Origin: a virus
Direction: 5' to 3' (one strand)
DNA length: 37,240 bases
IMG/VR virus record: IMGVR_UViG_3300049629_000421
Span: 1-37,240 of that record
The notes under the pieces are model-generated. The model worked only from the letters and a program-made list of their open reading frames with translations. It ran no database searches and had not been told where the DNA came from. Positions 4,904 to 23,541 of the stretch are shown one piece after another; position 1 is the stretch's first letter, and every line of letters begins with the position of its first letter. A program made the position numbers and the translations under genes.

Positions 4904-5416
4904 TTACTCAATAGGTTTACTAATAAATTCATCATACCATTGCATCAAGTCACCAATAGTTCTAACTATGATGTAGATACCACCTGCTTGATTGATAGAT
5001 TGTTCGTATTTGCGCTGATGGTCTGAAATTCTATCCTTACCATACTTAATTTCTATCTTAACACTTATACCAAACTTTGACCATTCTGGCTTAATTGTAG
5101 CCGAAATATCGGCACTTCCTTTCGTTCCTGTACCTCTTTGCCACTCAACGCTTCCAATGGTCTTACGATGCCCTAGAATATCAGTTACTACTTTAGTCTT
5201 ATCTATCCTGCGCCCCATTGTATTAATTCGCTCGGCTTGATGTCCGTTGTAGGTTAAGAAATCAATACAGCACCTAGTTAATCCATTCGCTGAATTATCG
5301 GTTTTGTCATAGAAACCGAAGTAAGCACGTTCCTTATCGCTTAGGGTTGTATTGTACTTTAGCTGGTGGTGTGAAAGTTTTAAGGCTATCATACGGAGTT
5401 TTTGGTCTTTAGTCAT
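4904..5416 (-). CDS. VRR-NUC-like PD-(D/E)XK nuclease
   Basis: 170 aa. The C-terminal half has the VRR-NUC pattern: GSADIS (metal-binding Asp), then KIEIKYGKD (E-x-K catalytic pair), then HQRKYEQSINQAGGIYIIV, where the Gln-rich helix and following strand are typical. The N-terminal half (residues 1-75) is not recognised. VRR-NUC proteins in phages are thought to cut branched or flapped DNA in replication and recombination. The start overlaps the stop of the upstream methyltransferase by one base. Confidence 0.82.
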   Translation of the reverse strand: MTKDQKLRMIALKLSHHQLKYNTTLSDKERAYFGFYDKTDNSANGLTRCCIDFLTYNGHQAERINTMGRRIDKTKVVTDILGHRKTIGSVEWQRGTGTKGSADISATIKPEWSKFGISVKIEIKYGKDRISDHQRKYEQSINQAGGIYIIVRTIGDLMQWYDEFISKPIE

Positions 5417-6129
5417 TAGAATAGTGTTTGTTGTTGGATGGCTAGTTCATATCGTTTAACTGAAGCATCGAAGTACTCCTTGTCGATTTCAAAGCCAGTA
5501 AATGATAGTTTAGCTTTGTGCGCAGCTATTCGGCTTGAACCTGAACCTAAATGGGTGTCGAGTATTTTGAAGTCAGTTTGGGAATAACGCTTTAATATCC
5601 ATTCATACAATTTAATAGGCTTTTGGCAAATATGTAATCTCACCTCGTCAGATTGCGTTGCTCTTAATACTTTGCATATTTTAGCATTACTATCAATACT
5701 GCACCATGCAAATTCACAATCAGCCATTGTAGGAAGATGCGCTATTTTATCCCAAATTATAAATCCTCTTGATGGTGGCAATTCATCCATAAAATAATTA
5801 GCACCCCAAACTATCTGATTTTTAGAAACCCTAAATAATTGTTCCCAATATTCTTTTGTAGGTTTTATATCCCAACTAGCGTCACCTTTTTTGTATTTAC
5901 TTGCCCATGTTCCCCCTTGTGTTAGTTTATCGTCACCTATCCCATACGGCGGGTCAACTATCGCCAAATCAAAATATTTATCTGGGTACATTTTCATCCC
6001 TTCAATACAGCACATATTGTAGGCTTTGTTTTCTATCATATCTAGTGAGTTTAAAATAAAAGTTTTTCTATCCGATTCCTTGCAATATTTCATTGCTTTT
6101 AAAATTAATTGTTTCGTTTTTGGTGTCAT
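5416..6129 (-). CDS. DNA N6-adenine/N4-cytosine methyltransferase, beta-type motif order
   Basis: 237 aa. Catalytic motif IV DPPY at residues 59-62 precedes the SAM-binding motif I-like DTHLGSGSSRIAA near residue 193, the beta-class order. DPPY is compatible with N6-adenine or N4-cytosine methylation. No restriction partner is adjacent, so it is probably a solitary phage enzyme protecting DNA from host restriction or marking it for replication or packaging. It has a clear paralogue at 17521-18198: both share DLAIVDPPYG, EYW-QLFRVSKNQIVWG-NYF, and the LDTHLGSG block. It follows the repeat-rich putative origin. Confidence 0.9.
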   Translation of the reverse strand: MTPKTKQLILKAMKYCKESDRKTFILNSLDMIENKAYNMCCIEGMKMYPDKYFDLAIVDPPYGIGDDKLTQGGTWASKYKKGDASWDIKPTKEYWEQLFRVSKNQIVWGANYFMDELPPSRGFIIWDKIAHLPTMADCEFAWCSIDSNAKICKVLRATQSDEVRLHICQKPIKLYEWILKRYSQTDFKILDTHLGSGSSRIAAHKAKLSFTGFEIDKEYFDASVKRYELAIQQQTLF

Positions 6130-9780: not shown

Positions 9781-10620
9781 TTAAAGTTTTTTGTTGATAA
9801 GTTTCATTCCGTAGTTATTTATTCCAGATTCTATATTTATTCCTTCTTTTTTTATTAGTATATTTTTTTCAAATGGTTTGTAATTTACTTGATGATGCCA
9901 TCGATTAAATTTCCATGTAACTTTTACAACGTCTGGGTGTTGTTGTTGTAAACTTTCAGCAAATACCTTTCTTTTATCTCCTGTATTGTAAATGGTATCT
10001 GTATTACCGCCACCTTGTGTCATTGTTGCCCTTTTACCAATTAAAAATGAATTAAATAAAACAGTACACCAACCATCTTTTAAAACTCTTAAACTAAGGT
10101 CAGTATCTTCGTTATATCTTCCACGCCATCTGTAAGGTATGCTATTTTTAATTAAAATACATGAGTAAATTCTAGTATTAAATCTTAATGGCGGTCTTGC
10201 CTCAATAGCAGGACAAAATAAAGCGTAATTCATTCCAGAAATAGCTATATTTTCATATCGCAATACAAAATCTTCGATTACATAAAATGGAGTACCAGTA
10301 TTGCATTTAACTTTAAGATTATTATTAAATCTCTCAATAGATTCGATATTATCATCTAAAATCCAATGATATTCATGCCCTTCATTAATTGAATGTTCCC
10401 AAACCCAATTCCTAACTGGTATAGAACCTTTGCCTAATTCACTATAATCAGAAGGCAAAACAAGTATTTTATTTGCGTCAATAACTTTTGCGTAATTTTC
10501 ATATTCTTTAGGCTCAACAACTATTCTATAAGGCACACTCATAAACTCCAAAGTTTTACTTGTTTGCCTTCTATCCCATCTTCCTTTGCTTATGATATAA
10601 ATAGGGTATCTAGGATTCAT
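9781..10620 (-). CDS. TAGT-type (TET/JBP-associated) DNA glycosyltransferase
   Basis: 279 aa from ATG 10620 (an ATG 10 codons upstream would overlap the previous gene by 41 nt). It starts with YPIYIISKGRW, has HWILDDN near residue 105 (the DxD-like nucleotide-sugar site) and RYNEDTDLSLRVLKDG near residue 180, all features of GT-A-fold TAGT enzymes. These add sugars to modified bases in phage DNA, usually after hydroxylation by a TET/JBP dioxygenase or use of hydroxymethylated nucleotides. No such partner is visible here, so the acceptor base is unknown. Glycosylation would protect phage DNA against restriction. Stop at 9781. Confidence 0.82.
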   Translation of the reverse strand: MNPRYPIYIISKGRWDRRQTSKTLEFMSVPYRIVVEPKEYENYAKVIDANKILVLPSDYSELGKGSIPVRNWVWEHSINEGHEYHWILDDNIESIERFNNNLKVKCNTGTPFYVIEDFVLRYENIAISGMNYALFCPAIEARPPLRFNTRIYSCILIKNSIPYRWRGRYNEDTDLSLRVLKDGWCTVLFNSFLIGKRATMTQGGGNTDTIYNTGDKRKVFAESLQQQHPDVVKVTWKFNRWHHQVNYKPFEKNILIKKEGINIESGINNYGMKLINKKL

Positions 10621-10900
10621 CTGTATATAGGTATTTATTTGGTTTTTCATTTAAAGGAAACCATGTAGACTTAACGTCTTTTCTTTGCATCCCATCAAAA
10701 GGCTTTTCATTATTGTATAAATTTTCTTTAACGAATTTATAAAACTTATCAAAGTCCTGCTGGTTTCTAAATTTAAAAGTAGCAGTAATAAAAGGCGGTT
10801 TTTGTTCATAATTGTTATACTCTGGCATACCAACCCATTCATTTTCCCAATTATTAGTATCTGTTTTTACTTCGTTTCCGAATAAATCCGTGTTGTTCAT
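10610..10900 (-). CDS. Small domain protein found near DNA-modification genes
   Basis: 96 aa. NEWVGMPEYNNY, a central FKFRNQQDFDKFYKFV and KSTWFPLNE resemble a small domain I recall beside, or fused to, ParB-like and DNA-methyltransferase proteins in phages (W-GMPEF... ...kSIWFP). The function of that domain is unknown to me. It overlaps the glycosyltransferase start by 11 nt, indicating coupled expression and a probable shared role in DNA modification. Confidence 0.65.
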   Translation of the reverse strand: MNNTDLFGNEVKTDTNNWENEWVGMPEYNNYEQKPPFITATFKFRNQQDFDKFYKFVKENLYNNEKPFDGMQRKDVKSTWFPLNEKPNKYLYTDES

Positions 10901-12170: not shown

Positions 12171-12869
12171 TTATTTCAATTTTAATGTGTTATAATAATT
12201 TTTAGCCTTTTCAATTTGTCCTTTCAACTTCTCGATTAACGCTTCATCATAAGCAAACTCGAATACCTTAACTCTATCTTCTTTGGGTATTTCGTTTATC
12301 AAGTCGTTATTGCGTTGGATTTGTTGACATTCTTCGATGTAATCAAGGTTATCATAGTTACCGCCATACGAGTATGATAGTTTCTGCATTTGGTTTGCAA
12401 CGATGTGTTGCGGTGTAGGCACAAGACAATAGATTAAACGATATTTTAACTTACCTGTTAGCCACATATAGCATTGAGCCTGTGTTATGTACATAGTTGT
12501 AGGTTCGGCGTTAAAATAGGTCTTTAAATTCCATGAAGTCTTAATATCCTCAACGTAATCAGCGATTACCACATCTGGAGTGCCTATGACGTAGTCGTTT
12601 GATAGCTTAGTATTGAATCTTGAACGAAATCCACCACCTAAAACATCTTGAGTTAACTCCATAGAATTTTGTTCGCATTCTATACCTTTATCCATGTAGT
12701 CATTTTTAATGCTTTCACGAAATCCATAGGTATCAAATAGCCATTTATCTTCGACAAATGTTTTTGCGGTATCGGATAGTAAACCAGCTTCTTTATCAGC
12801 CTTTAATCGTGGTTCGGTGAGTAATGCACCGCATCCACTACAACGAAATAGTACTTTATTTGTTTCCAT
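12171..12869 (-). CDS. PD-(D/E)XK exonuclease (recombination partner)
   Basis: 232 aa from ATG 12869; ATG 12893 would add eight residues and overlap further. The N-terminus carries a CSGCG zinc-like pair. Core motifs: DKGIECEQ (early Glu), GTPDVVIADYVEDIKTSW (PD...D-x-K), and QAQCYMWLTG (Gln-Tyr helix), as in lambda-exonuclease/YqaJ/Cas4-type nucleases. It would resect double-strand ends so that the overlapping Rad52-type gene product can anneal strands. Overlap with that gene is 14 nt. Confidence 0.8.
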   Translation of the reverse strand: METNKVLFRCSGCGALLTEPRLKADKEAGLLSDTAKTFVEDKWLFDTYGFRESIKNDYMDKGIECEQNSMELTQDVLGGGFRSRFNTKLSNDYVIGTPDVVIADYVEDIKTSWNLKTYFNAEPTTMYITQAQCYMWLTGKLKYRLIYCLVPTPQHIVANQMQKLSYSYGGNYDNLDYIEECQQIQRNNDLINEIPKEDRVKVFEFAYDEALIEKLKGQIEKAKNYYNTLKLK

Positions 12870-13497
12870 TGAGTATAGCTTTTTTAGATTCATAAATAGT
12901 TACCAAATCATACTTACCAACTAAGTCGAACACCTGTACAAGTTCATCTTCTGTACTAGCTTGTAAGATATGCTTCTCTACACGCTGTTTTTCCTTGCTG
13001 TTATGGGTTTCTTCAGCTGATTCTGTATTAACCGCAATTTCTCTAAATTCATCTTTGCCATAAATATCACTAGCTATGCCAATATCAGCAGCACATTTCT
13101 TTAACGCATCGGTAGCTGCAGCCTTGTAGTCATTCCCTAAGTTCAACGGGTCTTGTGTACCACGTTTATACATGATTTCTTTACACCCAAATTGCGTCTT
13201 TACTATTGCTTTGCCATTCACACGACAAGTCAATTTACCTTTAACGATTACTTGATTTGCTTGTACTACTTCGCTTAGTACTTCAAAATCCCAGTCCCAT
13301 CCAAACATTAAGTTTAGGACTTTGCGAATATACCCACCGCTAACGTATGTCCACGTTCCACCACCTTTAGCAGGTCTAGTACGTACAAACTTGTCGGGAG
13401 TACGTTTCATTAATAATGCGAGTTGGTTCGCATTGAGTGAATTGTCACTTACTAGCGATAATTCTTTTGCTTCGATTTTTACGATTTCTTTGCTCAT
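12856..13497 (-). CDS. Rad52/Rad22-type single-strand annealing protein
   Basis: 213 aa. Diagnostic phrases are YVSGGYIRKVLNLMFGWDWDFEV, read in two pieces around residues 50-75, the strand KGKLTCRVNGKAIVKTQFG, and LGNDYKAAATDALKKCAADIGIA split near residues 120-142, all typical of the Rad52/22 family. The C-terminal ~65 residues are a charged linker and a small helical end. It anneals complementary single strands in phage recombination and is paired with the exonuclease gene that overlaps its 3' end. Confidence 0.88.
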   Translation of the reverse strand: MSKEIVKIEAKELSLVSDNSLNANQLALLMKRTPDKFVRTRPAKGGGTWTYVSGGYIRKVLNLMFGWDWDFEVLSEVVQANQVIVKGKLTCRVNGKAIVKTQFGCKEIMYKRGTQDPLNLGNDYKAAATDALKKCAADIGIASDIYGKDEFREIAVNTESAEETHNSKEKQRVEKHILQASTEDELVQVFDLVGKYDLVTIYESKKAILNGNK

Positions 13498-17452: not shown

Positions 17453-17577
17453 TTCATATAACGGTTTGCAGATTGGCGTTGTTGCCACAAATGTTTAATT
17501 GAAACACTAAATTTAATAATATGGAAAATGATAATTTGAAAACGGAAAGCAATAACGCCAATGTGCTGTTAGGTGCA
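17453..17577 (+). repeat. attC-like site 4, containing the start codon of the next gene
   Basis: Left box TTCATATAAC (17453-17462); right box GTTAGGTGCA (17568-17577). Arms 17468-17483 and 17551-17566 are complementary except for two mismatches. The centre contains the ATG (17521) of the methyltransferase frame, which then reads through the arm and the right box. Confidence 0.72.
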
Positions 17578-18198
17578 GTGCCTTCTGTGGTGTATAATGA
17601 GGATTGTGTAGAGGGTTTAAAACGCTTTTCTGATAATCATTTTGACCTTGCGATAGTTGACCCACCATACGGATTAGGTAAAAGAACTACTGATGGTGGA
17701 AGCAAGAAAAACACACAAACTAAATTTATGGAGGATATTCGTAGAAGTAATTGGGATGATAATGTGCCGACTGCCGAATATTGGAAACAGCTATTTAGAG
17801 TATCTAAAAATCAAATTGTGTGGGGTGGCAATTACTTTGGACTTCCTGCACATAGAACATTCATTGTATGGGATAAAATGACCTATGTGCCAACTATGAG
17901 CCAAATAGAACAGGCCTGGACTTCATTTGATAGCCCAGCAAGGCTTTATAAAATAAATAGCAATAATGCTAATAGAATACACCCAACTGAAAAGCCTGTT
18001 GCATTATACAAAAGGCTATTAAATGAATATGCAAAGGAAGGCGATTTGATTTTAGATACACACTTGGGAAGCGGTGCGAATAGAATTGCTTGTGCTGAAA
18101 TGAAATTTAGTTTTGTGGGTTTTGAATTAGATAAAATTTACTATGAAAAACAAGAAAAGCGTTTTAAAAATTTTGTCAGCCAACTCCGAATGTTTTAG
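17521..18198 (+). CDS. Cassette 4: DNA N6-adenine/N4-cytosine methyltransferase
   Basis: 225 aa from ATG 17521. DPPY at residues 47-50 and the SAM-binding DTHLGSGANRIA near residue 180 give the beta-class order. It is a paralogue of the enzyme at 5416-6129, with shared blocks DLAIVDPPYG, LFRVSKNQIVWG and LDTHLGSG. Residues 1-16 are encoded by the preceding attC-like site and residues 17-19 by the junction box; the alignable part begins at about residue 24 (VYNEDC). In-frame GTG codons from 17578 could be the original start. So the N-terminus may have been gained on insertion. No restriction enzyme is adjacent; protection of phage DNA is likely. Confidence 0.85.
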   Translation: MENDNLKTESNNANVLLGAVPSVVYNEDCVEGLKRFSDNHFDLAIVDPPYGLGKRTTDGGSKKNTQTKFMEDIRRSNWDDNVPTAEYWKQLFRVSKNQIVWGGNYFGLPAHRTFIVWDKMTYVPTMSQIEQAWTSFDSPARLYKINSNNANRIHPTEKPVALYKRLLNEYAKEGDLILDTHLGSGANRIACAEMKFSFVGFELDKIYYEKQEKRFKNFVSQLRMF

Positions 18199-18936: not shown

Positions 18937-19695
18937 ATGATTTTAAGAAGATTAGGTAATAAACAAATGATTGCAGATGATATAGTAAAGCACTTTCCGC
19001 AACACACTATTTACATTGAATTGTTTTTTGGTGCAGGAGGAATATTTTTTAATAAACCAAAAGCAAAATTTAACATCTGTAATGATATTGATGAGGATGT
19101 GATAAACCTTTACGATGTTGTAAAGGAACGAAAAGCAGAACTTGTTGAAGCACTTGAAACAACACCTGTACACGATACAATTTATAAGCGTTGGAAAAAG
19201 GAAAAAGAAACAGAACCAATAATGAAAGCAGTAAGATTTTTATTCCTATCGAATTATAGTTATATGGGTAGTGGTTCATTAAGGTTTGGTGCTGATTACA
19301 GCGTAAAAACATTGCTAAATAACTGTATGGCTTTATCATTTGACAATTACGATGTAAAATTTACGAATACGGATTTTAGAAGTGTAATAAAAAAAATAGC
19401 TTGGAGAGATGAAGATGAAAAAACAAGGGCTTTTGTTTATGCAGACCCGCCATATTTAGGAACATCTGGAAACTATGATAATTTTTCAGAGCAGGACACA
19501 TCCGATTTATTTCAATTGCTTGTAGAAAGTAAATTGAAGTTTGCAATAAGTGAATTTAATAACGACTTTGTAACACATCTTGCAAAAGACTATAATCTGA
19601 ATATAATTGTAATAGGAGAAAGAAACAATTTAAGAAATCGTAGGACAGAAATATTAATAACGAATTATGAAAAACAAAAAGGGCTTTTCGATTAG
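18937..19695 (+). CDS. Cassette 6: Dam-type (D12 class) adenine DNA methyltransferase
   Basis: 252 aa. Motif order is alpha class: SAM-binding YIELFFGAGGIFF near residues 28-40, then catalytic ADPPYLGTSGNY near residue 168. The N-terminal RRLGNKQMIADDI is the usual lead-in of D12 enzymes (RYxGGKxxI...). It methylates adenine N6, recognition sequence unknown. No endonuclease is adjacent, so it is an orphan, probably anti-restriction. Size is close to the family's usual 250-300 aa. It fills the last cassette, 31 nt after its left boundary. Confidence 0.9.
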   Translation: MILRRLGNKQMIADDIVKHFPQHTIYIELFFGAGGIFFNKPKAKFNICNDIDEDVINLYDVVKERKAELVEALETTPVHDTIYKRWKKEKETEPIMKAVRFLFLSNYSYMGSGSLRFGADYSVKTLLNNCMALSFDNYDVKFTNTDFRSVIKKIAWRDEDEKTRAFVYADPPYLGTSGNYDNFSEQDTSDLFQLLVESKLKFAISEFNNDFVTHLAKDYNLNIIVIGERNNLRNRRTEILITNYEKQKGLFD

Positions 19696-20201: not shown

Positions 20202-20386
20202 GTGAAAGAAAATATGAAATAATCCCACATGAATCTTTTAAACAAGTAGAAGAATTAACTACTTGTATGGCTGAATTATTACGAATACATGAAAAGTTTA
20301 AATTACTTGGAATAGATTTAGATGAATGTATTAATGTCGAAAAACTAGAATTACAAATAGATAAAAAAATAAGTTCAATTATATGA
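20198..20386 (+). CDS. Small helical protein, unknown (62 aa)
   Basis: Overlaps the genes on both sides by 4 nt, so part of a tight translational unit with the endolysin candidate. Acidic, helical (QVEELTTCMAELLRIHEKF). No membrane span. Not recognised. Confidence 0.6.
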   Translation: MSERKYEIIPHESFKQVEELTTCMAELLRIHEKFKLLGIDLDECINVEKLELQIDKKISSII

Positions 20387-20928
20387 CACAACCTAAAATA
20401 ACACGCCCTGAATTAATCGACAAGTTAAAACCCCTTTATCCTGCTTTAGAAGATGAAATACTAATCATTGGGATTCGAGGGTATTATAAGAACTCAATGG
20501 GTAAAACAGGTGTAAATGATAGGTCTATCTATGATGATGCGATTATTATAATGACCGATAACGAATTTCATACTTTCAATGCTAATTGTGATCCATCAGC
20601 ATATCGCAAAGGAATTGCATCATTAAATCCAGGTGTATGGAGAGTTTACAAGTTTGATATTCATGGCGGTCGTTCATCTCAATACCCTGCAATATGTCAA
20701 CGTGCTGGAGTTGTTACTGTTACTCGTGATGGTGGCAAAGTTGATACAGGTATGTTTGGTATCAATATTCATAAAGGAGGTTATAAAGGCACGTCAAGCG
20801 AAGGTTGCCAAACTATACACCCCGACCAATGGCAACGATTCTATTCAACTATGGAAAGACTAGCAAAGTCTATTCATGGTGACAAATATAAATCACAAGT
20901 GTATGCCTACGTGCTAATAAATAATTAA
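20383..20928 (+). CDS. Putative endolysin (peptidoglycan-active enzyme)
   Basis: 181 aa. FGINIHKGGYKGTSSEGCQT (residues ~125-144) recalls the catalytic H...S-x-GC signature of L,D-transpeptidase/YkuD folds, and a DIHGG earlier (~88) gives another conserved His. Proteins ending in an INIH-GG...S-GCQTI-P-QW block are often annotated as lysis proteins in phages, but I cannot assign a bond specificity. No signal peptide, so export would need a holin; a holin-like gene faces it at 20985-21215. Last gene of the plus-strand block. Confidence 0.6.
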   Translation: MTQPKITRPELIDKLKPLYPALEDEILIIGIRGYYKNSMGKTGVNDRSIYDDAIIIMTDNEFHTFNANCDPSAYRKGIASLNPGVWRVYKFDIHGGRSSQYPAICQRAGVVTVTRDGGKVDTGMFGINIHKGGYKGTSSEGCQTIHPDQWQRFYSTMERLAKSIHGDKYKSQVYAYVLINN

Positions 20929-20957: not shown

Positions 20958-20987
20958 AACCCTACCTAAATTGGTAGGGTTTTTTTA
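20958..20987. terminator. Bidirectional terminator between convergent blocks
   Basis: AACCCTACC (20958-20966), loop TAAATT, GGTAGGGTT (20973-20981), then a T-run to 20986. The 9-bp stem is flanked by T on the plus strand; on the minus strand it follows the stop at 20985-20987 and has GTTAACATG after it, so termination is stronger for the plus strand. Confidence 0.82.
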
Positions 20988-21215
20988 TTCACTCGGAGTG
21001 TCTTTAGGTTGTTCAACATCAGCTAAAAGCAAATCGAAAAACTCCATTGAACCACTTTGAATCAATTTACAAACAAGTAATGTTTTAGAATCTTCGGGAA
21101 TGTAAAGTACTAAAATAGCTAGTGTCAAATTCGATGCCCAACTTACTATTTTCTTTGTAAGTCTAAACCAATAAGGTGCAGGTAAATGTGTGTTATTAAT
21201 TGATAACTTTGCCAT
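20985..21215 (-). CDS. Small membrane protein, holin candidate (76 aa)
   Basis: ATG 21215. One moderately hydrophobic segment (NLTLAILVLYIP, residues ~29-40) preceded by basic RLTKKIVSW, and a charged C-terminus ending QPKDTPSE. Size and position next to lysis-type genes suit a holin or accessory lysis protein, but sequence alone does not prove it. Four nucleotides after the PAS protein. Confidence 0.45.
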   Translation of the reverse strand: MAKLSINNTHLPAPYWFRLTKKIVSWASNLTLAILVLYIPEDSKTLLVCKLIQSGSMEFFDLLLADVEQPKDTPSE

Positions 21216-21219
21216 AGTT

Positions 21220-21873
21220 TTATTTTTTTTTGATTTCTTTGATTTCTTGATTTAGCTTAAGCATCGTTGGCGTTCCTTTCAAATCTTGTATGAAGTTGAA
21301 AATACAAGTCAGTTTTTCATCTGCTGTTTCCTTTTCACCAACCACCCATACGCTACCTATAGCACGATTTAGTTTATTATCTGCATCATAACGAAATATA
21401 GCTTTGTAATGGCACTCATTTATAACCTTGTAAGTGTCTTTATCTACAACTCTATAATGGTCTGTAATCTTGATTGTATAGCTATTAACAGCCATTTCCC
21501 ATGTTTTCTTAACTCTATCAACATCATCTGGATGAATAAACGATAACCAACCATAGCCATACATTTGGTCGGCTGTTGTGTTGAATATACTTAACAAGGC
21601 ATCGTTAACCTCTACACATAAGCCTTTACTATCACATATGAATAATGCTGTACCACTCATATCAAACGTACTTTCCTGCATCATCTGAAGTATCTGAACG
21701 TCTTTTTTTATAGCTTTCACATCGGTAACTAAACCTTTTAAAGTGGTCAATGATTCTTCTCTAAAATCTTTCGTTGATTTGTATGATGTATAAAAATGTC
21801 GAATCACAAAAGGTACAGCCACACCGCCTACCCATTTGATACCTTCTGTCGCTATTTCGGGAATGTCAATCAT
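21220..21873 (-). CDS. Membrane-anchored PAS-domain protein
   Basis: 217 aa. Residues ~10-28 (EGIKWVGGVAVPFVIRHFY) are a likely membrane anchor; 30-65 a coiled coil; ~70-170 a PAS fold with PAC end: FICDSKGLCVEVNDALLSIF, YGYGWLSFIHPDDVDRV, GSVWVVGE. PAS domains bind small ligands or sense redox or light; they are unusual in phage virion or lysis gene blocks. There is no kinase or other output domain, only a charged C-terminal helix. The anchor plus coiled coil resembles small phage holin-like proteins, so a ligand-gated lysis or host-envelope function is conceivable (inference). Confidence 0.75.
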   Translation of the reverse strand: MIDIPEIATEGIKWVGGVAVPFVIRHFYTSYKSTKDFREESLTTLKGLVTDVKAIKKDVQILQMMQESTFDMSGTALFICDSKGLCVEVNDALLSIFNTTADQMYGYGWLSFIHPDDVDRVKKTWEMAVNSYTIKITDHYRVVDKDTYKVINECHYKAIFRYDADNKLNRAIGSVWVVGEKETADEKLTCIFNFIQDLKGTPTMLKLNQEIKEIKKK

Positions 21874-21899: not shown

Positions 21900-22106
21900 T
21901 CAGTCTATATTTTTAGGTACATAATCAATTTTGTCTAACGTAGATAAATCTTCGTGAATTTCAGCAAATGCAACATCATTCAATACTTCCTCACCAACAA
22001 CCCAATTATCATTGGCGTCACTTACAAATTCAAGCAATGAATTGCCATTTTTATAGCCATTTAATCTATCGAATATATCTTGTGTTGCTAGTAGTACTAT
22101 TGCCAT
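21900..22106 (-). CDS. Small acidic protein after the adhesin gene (68 aa)
   Basis: ATG 22106, sharing one base with the stop of the preceding gene. Acidic, no membrane span. Small genes directly after receptor-binding proteins are often chaperones, but nothing in the sequence proves it. Not recognised. Confidence 0.58.
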   Translation of the reverse strand: MAIVLLATQDIFDRLNGYKNGNSLLEFVSDANDNWVVGEEVLNDVAFAEIHEDLSTLDKIDYVPKNID

Positions 22107-23275
22107 TATAATGAATTTATATAAGTGTCTAATATTATTTTTAACTGAGCATTTTCAGCAACTAGCGAAGCACCCATAGCATAGACAGAAGCACACGCAT
22201 CACATCCGCTTGGGAGAACATATTGATTACCGCTAGCGATACTTGTACTCGTTGCTGTACGACTTATTTGGGTACTTCCATTAAATAGTTCAACGTTGGT
22301 AGATGATGTACGATTTATGACTTTCAAACCTGCACCGCTTAAATCTGCATTCGATGAAATAACTCCACTTGTTTGATTTATCTTTTGGTCATTACTATTT
22401 CTATTTTGGAAAGTGTTTTGCGTAAATGTTAGATAAGAATCTAATAAGTAATAAGGACTTGTTATAAACGCAGTTTTTAAATAAATGAATCTTGAGGCGT
22501 TATTCAATGTGTATTGAACTCCGCTTGTGGCTGGGTTAAAATTCGTATTCAAATATGATGTAGAAGCATTACCCTTGAATCCTTGACTAGCTGTAAACGA
22601 TGGTGAATTAACTAATGTAACTTGGTGTGATGAAGGTGCTTTGAAATTCAACGTAGCCATGTTGCTGTTGTTGGTAGCAAACAAATAAAGTATATCTAAC
22701 TTAGACCATATTCCTGCACTTTTTAGACTTAATACTGTTGCGTTTTGTTTCGTTTGTAATGTCGCATCTGGCAAAGTATAGCCTAGTGTTGTCCCTCGTG
22801 ATAATACAGCGTAGTAGTCAGCGTCTAAAATATAACTACCTGCACTCGTTGCGTTCGCACTACCATCATCATCACTAGCGGTTTCTACTATTGTAATCGT
22901 CTTACCTGCATCACTTGTTATTGGCACATACGTTGCTCCGCCTGTTTGAACTGTTACGCCATTAGATTTCCATACCCATGTTATAGTTATAGGCAAATCA
23001 GCAGTCCATGTACCTGCAACTCTAGTCAATGTTTGACCAACCGCTAAATTTCCTGTTATTGAAGGTAAGACTGTATTTACAGGTGCATTACCATCGCTAC
23101 ACAAATTATTAGCCAAAAAAAATTGTTGCCATTCATACTCATTTTTAGCTTCGTTATTCGTAAACCAAACCGAATCTGAATAATTGCAACACGTGAAATC
23201 CTTAGTACAAACCAATGCGCTAAACTCCTCTTGAGTTAATACTTTTAATGTTGCTATGTTAGTATATGTAGGCAT
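22106..23275 (-). CDS. Receptor-binding/adhesin-like virion protein with Ig-like and LamG-like parts
   Basis: 389 aa from ATG 23275, which overlaps the upstream stop by one base; the longer frame from 23314 is unlikely. An N-terminal ~60-residue part carries CTKDFTCCNYSD. Residues ~65-140 look like an Ig-like domain (VGQTLTRVAGTW, SDAGKTITIVETASDDDG). The rest (~145-389) is beta-rich, Ser/Thr/Asn-rich, like concanavalin/laminin-G-type domains in Bacteroidota phage tail proteins. Last large virion gene, so a host-recognition protein is likely. Confidence 0.65.
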   Translation of the reverse strand: MPTYTNIATLKVLTQEEFSALVCTKDFTCCNYSDSVWFTNNEAKNEYEWQQFFLANNLCSDGNAPVNTVLPSITGNLAVGQTLTRVAGTWTADLPITITWVWKSNGVTVQTGGATYVPITSDAGKTITIVETASDDDGSANATSAGSYILDADYYAVLSRGTTLGYTLPDATLQTKQNATVLSLKSAGIWSKLDILYLFATNNSNMATLNFKAPSSHQVTLVNSPSFTASQGFKGNASTSYLNTNFNPATSGVQYTLNNASRFIYLKTAFITSPYYLLDSYLTFTQNTFQNRNSNDQKINQTSGVISSNADLSGAGLKVINRTSSTNVELFNGSTQISRTATSTSIASGNQYVLPSGCDACASVYAMGASLVAENAQLKIILDTYINSL

Positions 23276-23541
23276 TATGGTAATGTTGTTGTATTTTGTC
23301 TGAATGATGTACAAGCATAGTAAACGTTGAATAGATTATCGACTATCACATCCGATTGATCACCTACCATGTCGAATGCGACTGAGGACCGATATGCAGT
23401 AACCGCTGAAACGCCCGACGTTACCGATACTCTATTTTGTGTGAAAGTAGTTCCTGCGGTTGTTAGCACCCCTACATAGTATTTTGAAGCGTATGATAGA
23501 TGAACTAAATCCGTTCCGTTTGGTATAGTTTGAATAAACAT
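23275..23541 (-). CDS. Small virion-block protein, unknown (88 aa)
   Basis: Beta-rich, Thr/Ser/Val-rich (YYVGVLTTAGTTFTQNRV). Shares one-base overlaps with both neighbours. Probably a tail or decoration subunit by position. Not recognised. Confidence 0.6.
   Translation of the reverse strand: MFIQTIPNGTDLVHLSYASKYYVGVLTTAGTTFTQNRVSVTSGVSAVTAYRSSVAFDMVGDQSDVIVDNLFNVYYACTSFRQNTTTLP

Follow-up and report, generated by a model that had tools for sequence, protein, structure and literature searches.

A phage protein with a PAS sensor domain is encoded in a probable lysis locus. The protein comprises 217 amino acids, and its gene is found at positions 21220-21873, minus strand, of a viral DNA stretch of 37,240 nucleotides (IMG/VR record IMGVR_UViG_3300049629_000421), termed the window here. 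The source phage is Bacteroidota-type. The favoured reading, given about an even chance of being correct, is that the protein is a regulator of the lysis module that has an exchangeable PAS input domain and acts through the holin-like protein encoded next to it. For phages, the moment of lysis is a central trait of life history, and its best-studied input is superinfection sensing in T4. If exchangeable PAS or GAF domains are a feature of lysis modules in Bacteroidota phages, host metabolites or redox state could influence that timing. The literature searched, the coverage of which was incomplete, yielded no account of PAS proteins in the lysis modules of phages.

An earlier note, made from the letters of the sequence, had described a complete PAS domain and no enzymatic output, and both descriptions hold. 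The Pfam model PAS_3 (PF08447) matches the protein with E = 7.4e-9 (36.2 bits against a cut-off of 25.6) over positions 3-87 of the 89 in the profile. The NCBIfam S-box model TIGR00229 concurs at 23.2 bits (cut-off 22.9), and PAS_9 also matches, barely over the Pfam cut-off. Neither Pfam nor NCBIfam shows an enzymatic or output domain; two predicted helices follow the PAS domain. The two databases likewise yielded no HisKA/HATPase transmitter, the domain that marks a sensor histidine kinase. Cellular sensor kinases and diguanylate cyclases also carry a complete PAS_3 domain, but the window protein is devoid of a kinase, cyclase or other output domain.

Structure prediction, which the note had proposed, was performed with AF2 and gave a mixed result. 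The secondary structure of residues 77-179 follows the PAS order b-b-a-a-a-b-b-b, but the model is poor (pLDDT 44), its input being three near-identical rows. The best Foldseek match of this low-confidence model in the PDB is a PAS domain at 2e-3; nothing was found at E<=1e-3. A direct reading of the PAS sequence shows that the LOV-type Cys motif and the His expected in the F-helix are both missing. Light (LOV) and classical heme sensing by the domain are thus without sequence support and were set aside.

The known close members of the PAS protein number three, all metagenomic; the orthologs are in two IMG/VR contigs and are 98% and 87% identical. A tblastn search of 50,697 phage genomes gave no match, the PAS core alone gave only chance matches in phage genomes at E<10, and a profile search of genome contigs with the PAS alignment detected no relative. 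Plasmid matches are to generic cellular PAS domains with about 20-25% identity, whereas the window domain is found in the context of a phage lysis module.

The PAS gene is under purifying selection, with dN/dS values of 0.09 against the ortholog in contig L001 and 0.15 against that in L002. Synonymous divergence from L002 is unevenly distributed: the PAS core (residues 67-180; 21334-21675, minus strand) has a dS of 1.11, compared with 0.155 for residues 1-66 and 0.36 for residues 181-217, and the contrast between the core and the rest is significant (Fisher p 5e-6). The dN/dS of the core itself is 0.13. Because the dS of the core far exceeds that of the N-terminal and C-terminal parts, the core is seen as an exchanged module. 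In the single sequence pair behind this result, the core evidently moved as one block whose edges are near those of the domain. A constrained input domain that can be swapped while its stalk and tail stay constant is more in keeping with a sensor than with a structural filler.

The PAS gene is penultimate in a leftward late operon, which consists of genes for proteins of 402 and 68 amino acids, the PAS gene and a gene for a 76-amino-acid protein, followed by a hairpin. The 402-amino-acid product (22106-23314, minus strand) is a tail/adhesin-like protein that matches phrog_26223 at 3.5e-33 and resembles a Flavobacterium phage 'putative YapH protein'. The earlier note had placed the PAS gene between an adhesin-linked gene and a holin-like gene. 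The holin-like gene does adjoin it on one side, but on the other the 68-amino-acid gene (21900-22106, minus strand), conserved in L001 and L002, separates it from the adhesin-like gene. The 76-amino-acid gene (20985-21215, minus strand) starts 4 nt past the PAS stop codon, and its product has one hydrophobic segment at residues 24-40. No convincing family match to this product was found in Pfam, PHROGs or NCBIfam, so its role as a holin is putative.

The facing, rightward operon ends with a candidate endolysin gene (20383-20928, plus strand), which matches phrog_3000, a family of unknown function, at 5e-17. The two operons converge, and a hairpin with a T tail (20958-20981) sits at the point of convergence; one such match against 1.3 expected by chance makes it weak on its own. 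The order of the 68-amino-acid gene, the PAS gene and the 76-amino-acid gene is kept in L001 and L002, and the pairing of the last two is conserved in L001/L004 and L002. In L002 the place of the phrog_3000 gene is taken by an M15 peptidase gene (L002:2216-2701) with matches to Peptidase_M15_4 (1.2e-11) and to the endolysin family phrog_17001 (2e-54). The flanks of the swapped enzyme are retained, with 99.6% and 88% identity. Such a natural swap between two candidate lysis enzymes at a single site is a good indication of a lysis locus.

The N-terminal part of the PAS protein contains a hydrophobic segment at residues 11-27 (21793-21843, minus strand), which had been read as a membrane span. 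The segment is present, but it is weak: its maximum 19-residue Kyte-Doolittle mean is 1.13, under the usual thresholds, and its crude insertion energy is +4.6. That of gp31 of the Polaribacter phage P12002S is +5.2, and comparable proteins of most other phages have values of about -1.5 to +1.7. A membrane span is plausible from the sequence, and the protein may be just membrane-associated. There are no K/R residues before the segment and three after it, and this positive charge predicts that the PAS side is cytoplasmic (C-in). The segment is followed by a predicted helical stalk at residues 38-66 (21676-21762, minus strand), also helical in the low-confidence model. Within it, heptad spacing of 3-4-3-4-3 can be read directly at residues 45-62 (L45, L48, V52, I55, V59 and L62). 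The coiled coil named in the note is therefore plausible, and short. The tail, residues 181-217 and the stop codon (21220-21333, minus strand), is conserved, with one nonsynonymous change relative to L002; the low-confidence model places helices at 184-199 and 202-216.

Proteins of similar layout are found at the same position in related lysis loci. Through relatives of the phrog_3000 protein, 80 viral loci were collected. In the closer of these, a gene shortly before that of the enzyme encodes a protein that has a charged helical stalk and, N-terminally, a single hydrophobic helix. Such stalk proteins account for 10 of the 24 open reading frames in the 1.8 kb upstream of the enzyme, compared with 5 of 126 elsewhere (p = 3e-6; nine loci, not all independent, as L012, L013 and L018 are one lineage). 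In L008, L009 and L012-L018 the protein stops after the stalk. In L010 and L109 it extends into a further domain, and directly downstream of its gene lie a two-helix holin-like gene and then that of the lysis enzyme, a phrog_3000 protein in L010 and an M15 peptidase in L109.

The extended proteins belong to phrog_29276, which matches those of L010, L109 and P12002S at 1e-12 or better. Members are encoded at L109:445-1077, L010:808-1482, L107:3821-4444 and L110:4821-5444 and are annotated as unknown. In the cultured Polaribacter phage P12002S the gene is immediately upstream of the annotated endolysin. The AF2 model of the L109 protein (pLDDT 70) matches the sensor-kinase GAF domain 3o5y in Foldseek at 2.5e-5, and VIA gives a Z of about 13 over about 140 residues against GAF domains. 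Thus phrog_29276, including the proteins of L010, L109 and Polaribacter phages P12002S and P12002L, models as a membrane-anchored GAF-like protein beside lysis genes. This gives a lead to what the family may do in cultured marine phages. The P12002S gp31 protein and its P12002L homologue resemble the window protein in size (about 207 amino acids), in the order of short N-terminal hydrophobic segment, stalk and C-terminal sensor-like domain, and in their place beside a late-operon endolysin. Like the phrog_29276 genes of L010 and L109, the PAS gene adjoins both a holin-like gene and a gene for a lysis enzyme, although the enzyme of the window is on the facing strand.

The slot can thus hold helix-only, GAF-bearing or, in the window lineage, PAS-bearing proteins, a likeness claimed for position and architecture. 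The domain of phrog_29276 models as GAF and not PAS, no sequence homology between this family and the window protein could be detected, and the phrog_29276 profile is not among the PHROGs matches of that protein at E<1. Comparisons by hhalign among the PAS, GAF and slot proteins, made with shallow profiles, gave no homology. They are uninformative because a link of the window PAS domain to phage PAS domains was also missed. The matching slot proteins beside holin-like and endolysin genes, together with the enzyme swap in L002, support the placement of the PAS gene in a lysis region, as the earlier note had it.

In the proposed regulatory mechanism, the short hydrophobic helix and the helical stalk would hold the protein at the inner membrane, with the PAS domain, carried on the stalk, probably on the cytoplasmic side. 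The PAS domain would bind a small molecule or a protein. Its state would alter the action of the stalk and C-terminal tail on the 76-amino-acid holin-like protein, such that hole formation would be delayed or released. The proposal draws on the conserved gene order, the enzyme swap in L002, the enrichment of stalk proteins in the slot, the block exchange of the PAS core and, by analogy, T4 holin T with its regulatory globular domain. The PAS protein may tune lysis timing to a small-molecule or redox state, which is compatible with the data. A broader proposal is less likely than not: that phages of this group set the moment of lysis by the chemical state of the infected cell, through a membrane-tethered stalk protein whose sensors are interchangeable (PAS in the window, GAF in some relatives and no sensor in others) as a one-protein input to the holin. 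Points that weigh against a regulator are the weak membrane segment, the lack of a family match for the 76-amino-acid neighbour, the failure to detect homology with the GAF-bearing proteins, the small number of close members, the partial dependence among the nine loci and the location of the PAS gene on the strand opposite the enzyme.

PAS domains commonly dimerise, and the protein carries no output domain. Both properties would suit a membrane-located protein that disturbs host signalling or superinfecting phages, for instance by pairing with host sensor kinases as a decoy PAS subunit; late expression would then account for the gene's place near the lysis genes. PAS/GAF histidine kinases also adjoin a homologous enzyme in large phages. 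This explanation is nevertheless unlikely. The late-operon site adjoins a holin-like gene, helix-only proteins without any sensor domain occupy the same slot in other phages, and no defence or exclusion system model in PADLOC matches the PAS protein.

A second explanation is that the PAS protein is itself a one-helix, class III-like holin, with the PAS domain as its regulatory part and the 76-amino-acid protein as an accessory or antiholin. The plan is that of the T4/T5 holin T family (PF11031, class III), whose members likewise combine a single membrane helix with a helical stalk and a globular domain for regulation. T4 holin T has a bridge helix and the globular domain besides its membrane helix; on the periplasmic side, lysis is reported to require the bridge helix alone, the globular domain having a regulatory role (PMC12162936). 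Regulation runs through the antiholin RI (PMC11413866). The holin T gene adjoins the endolysin in T5-like phages, and its domain controls lysis timing in T4 by way of antiholins (PMC12162936, PMC11413866). In addition, Foldseek gives a weak match (3e-4, TM 0.38) between the model of the GAF-bearing L109 protein and the Proteus phage Stubb class III holin, which belongs to PF11031 (1.6e-51).

A class III-like holin is nevertheless very unlikely. The window protein differs from holin T in having a PAS domain in place of the T domain, and a separate small holin-like gene is present. PF11031 gave no match to the window protein at E<1 and none to the L109/P12002 slot proteins. The globular domain of T is periplasmic (N-in, C-out; PMC11413866), whereas the window PAS domain is predicted, from charges alone, to be cytoplasmic. 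Further points against it are the weakness of the hydrophobic segment and, in L010 and L109, the presence of a distinct two-helix holin-like gene after the gene of the GAF version. A T holin domain is not among the 50 matches listed from VIA for the L109 model, a list short enough that one may lie beyond it. Membership of the PAS protein in the T holin family was rejected on the lack of a PF11031 match, and holin T is retained as a working analogy.

The alternative raised in the earlier note, a minor virion protein tied to the tail tip or adhesin, draws on the position of the PAS gene downstream of the tail/adhesin-like gene in one operon, but it is less likely, with only a slight chance, given the hydrophobic N-terminus, the tight pairing with the holin-like gene and a lysis-slot architecture matched in other phages.

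Some additional features were observed. Many large aquatic phage contigs have GAF/PAS/HATPase sensor histidine kinases of 523-707 amino acids, encoded divergently beside a distant homologue of the phrog_3000 enzyme of the window. The contigs that carry them (L019, L021-L023, L025-L031, L044, L051, L053-L055, L057, L065, L070, L080 and L084) are related and not independent, and some have a second kinase of about 480 amino acids. Elsewhere in the window, a RecE-like exonuclease adjoins a phrog_37405 protein (1.3e-56, unknown function) at 12171-13497 on the minus strand. A glycosyltransferase-like protein is encoded at 9781-10650, also on the minus strand, and matches phrog_842 (beta-glucosyl-HMC-alpha-glucosyltransferase) at 4e-45. 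Together with three DNA methyltransferases, at 5416-6129, 17521-18198 and 18937-19695, it points to possible DNA hypermodification.
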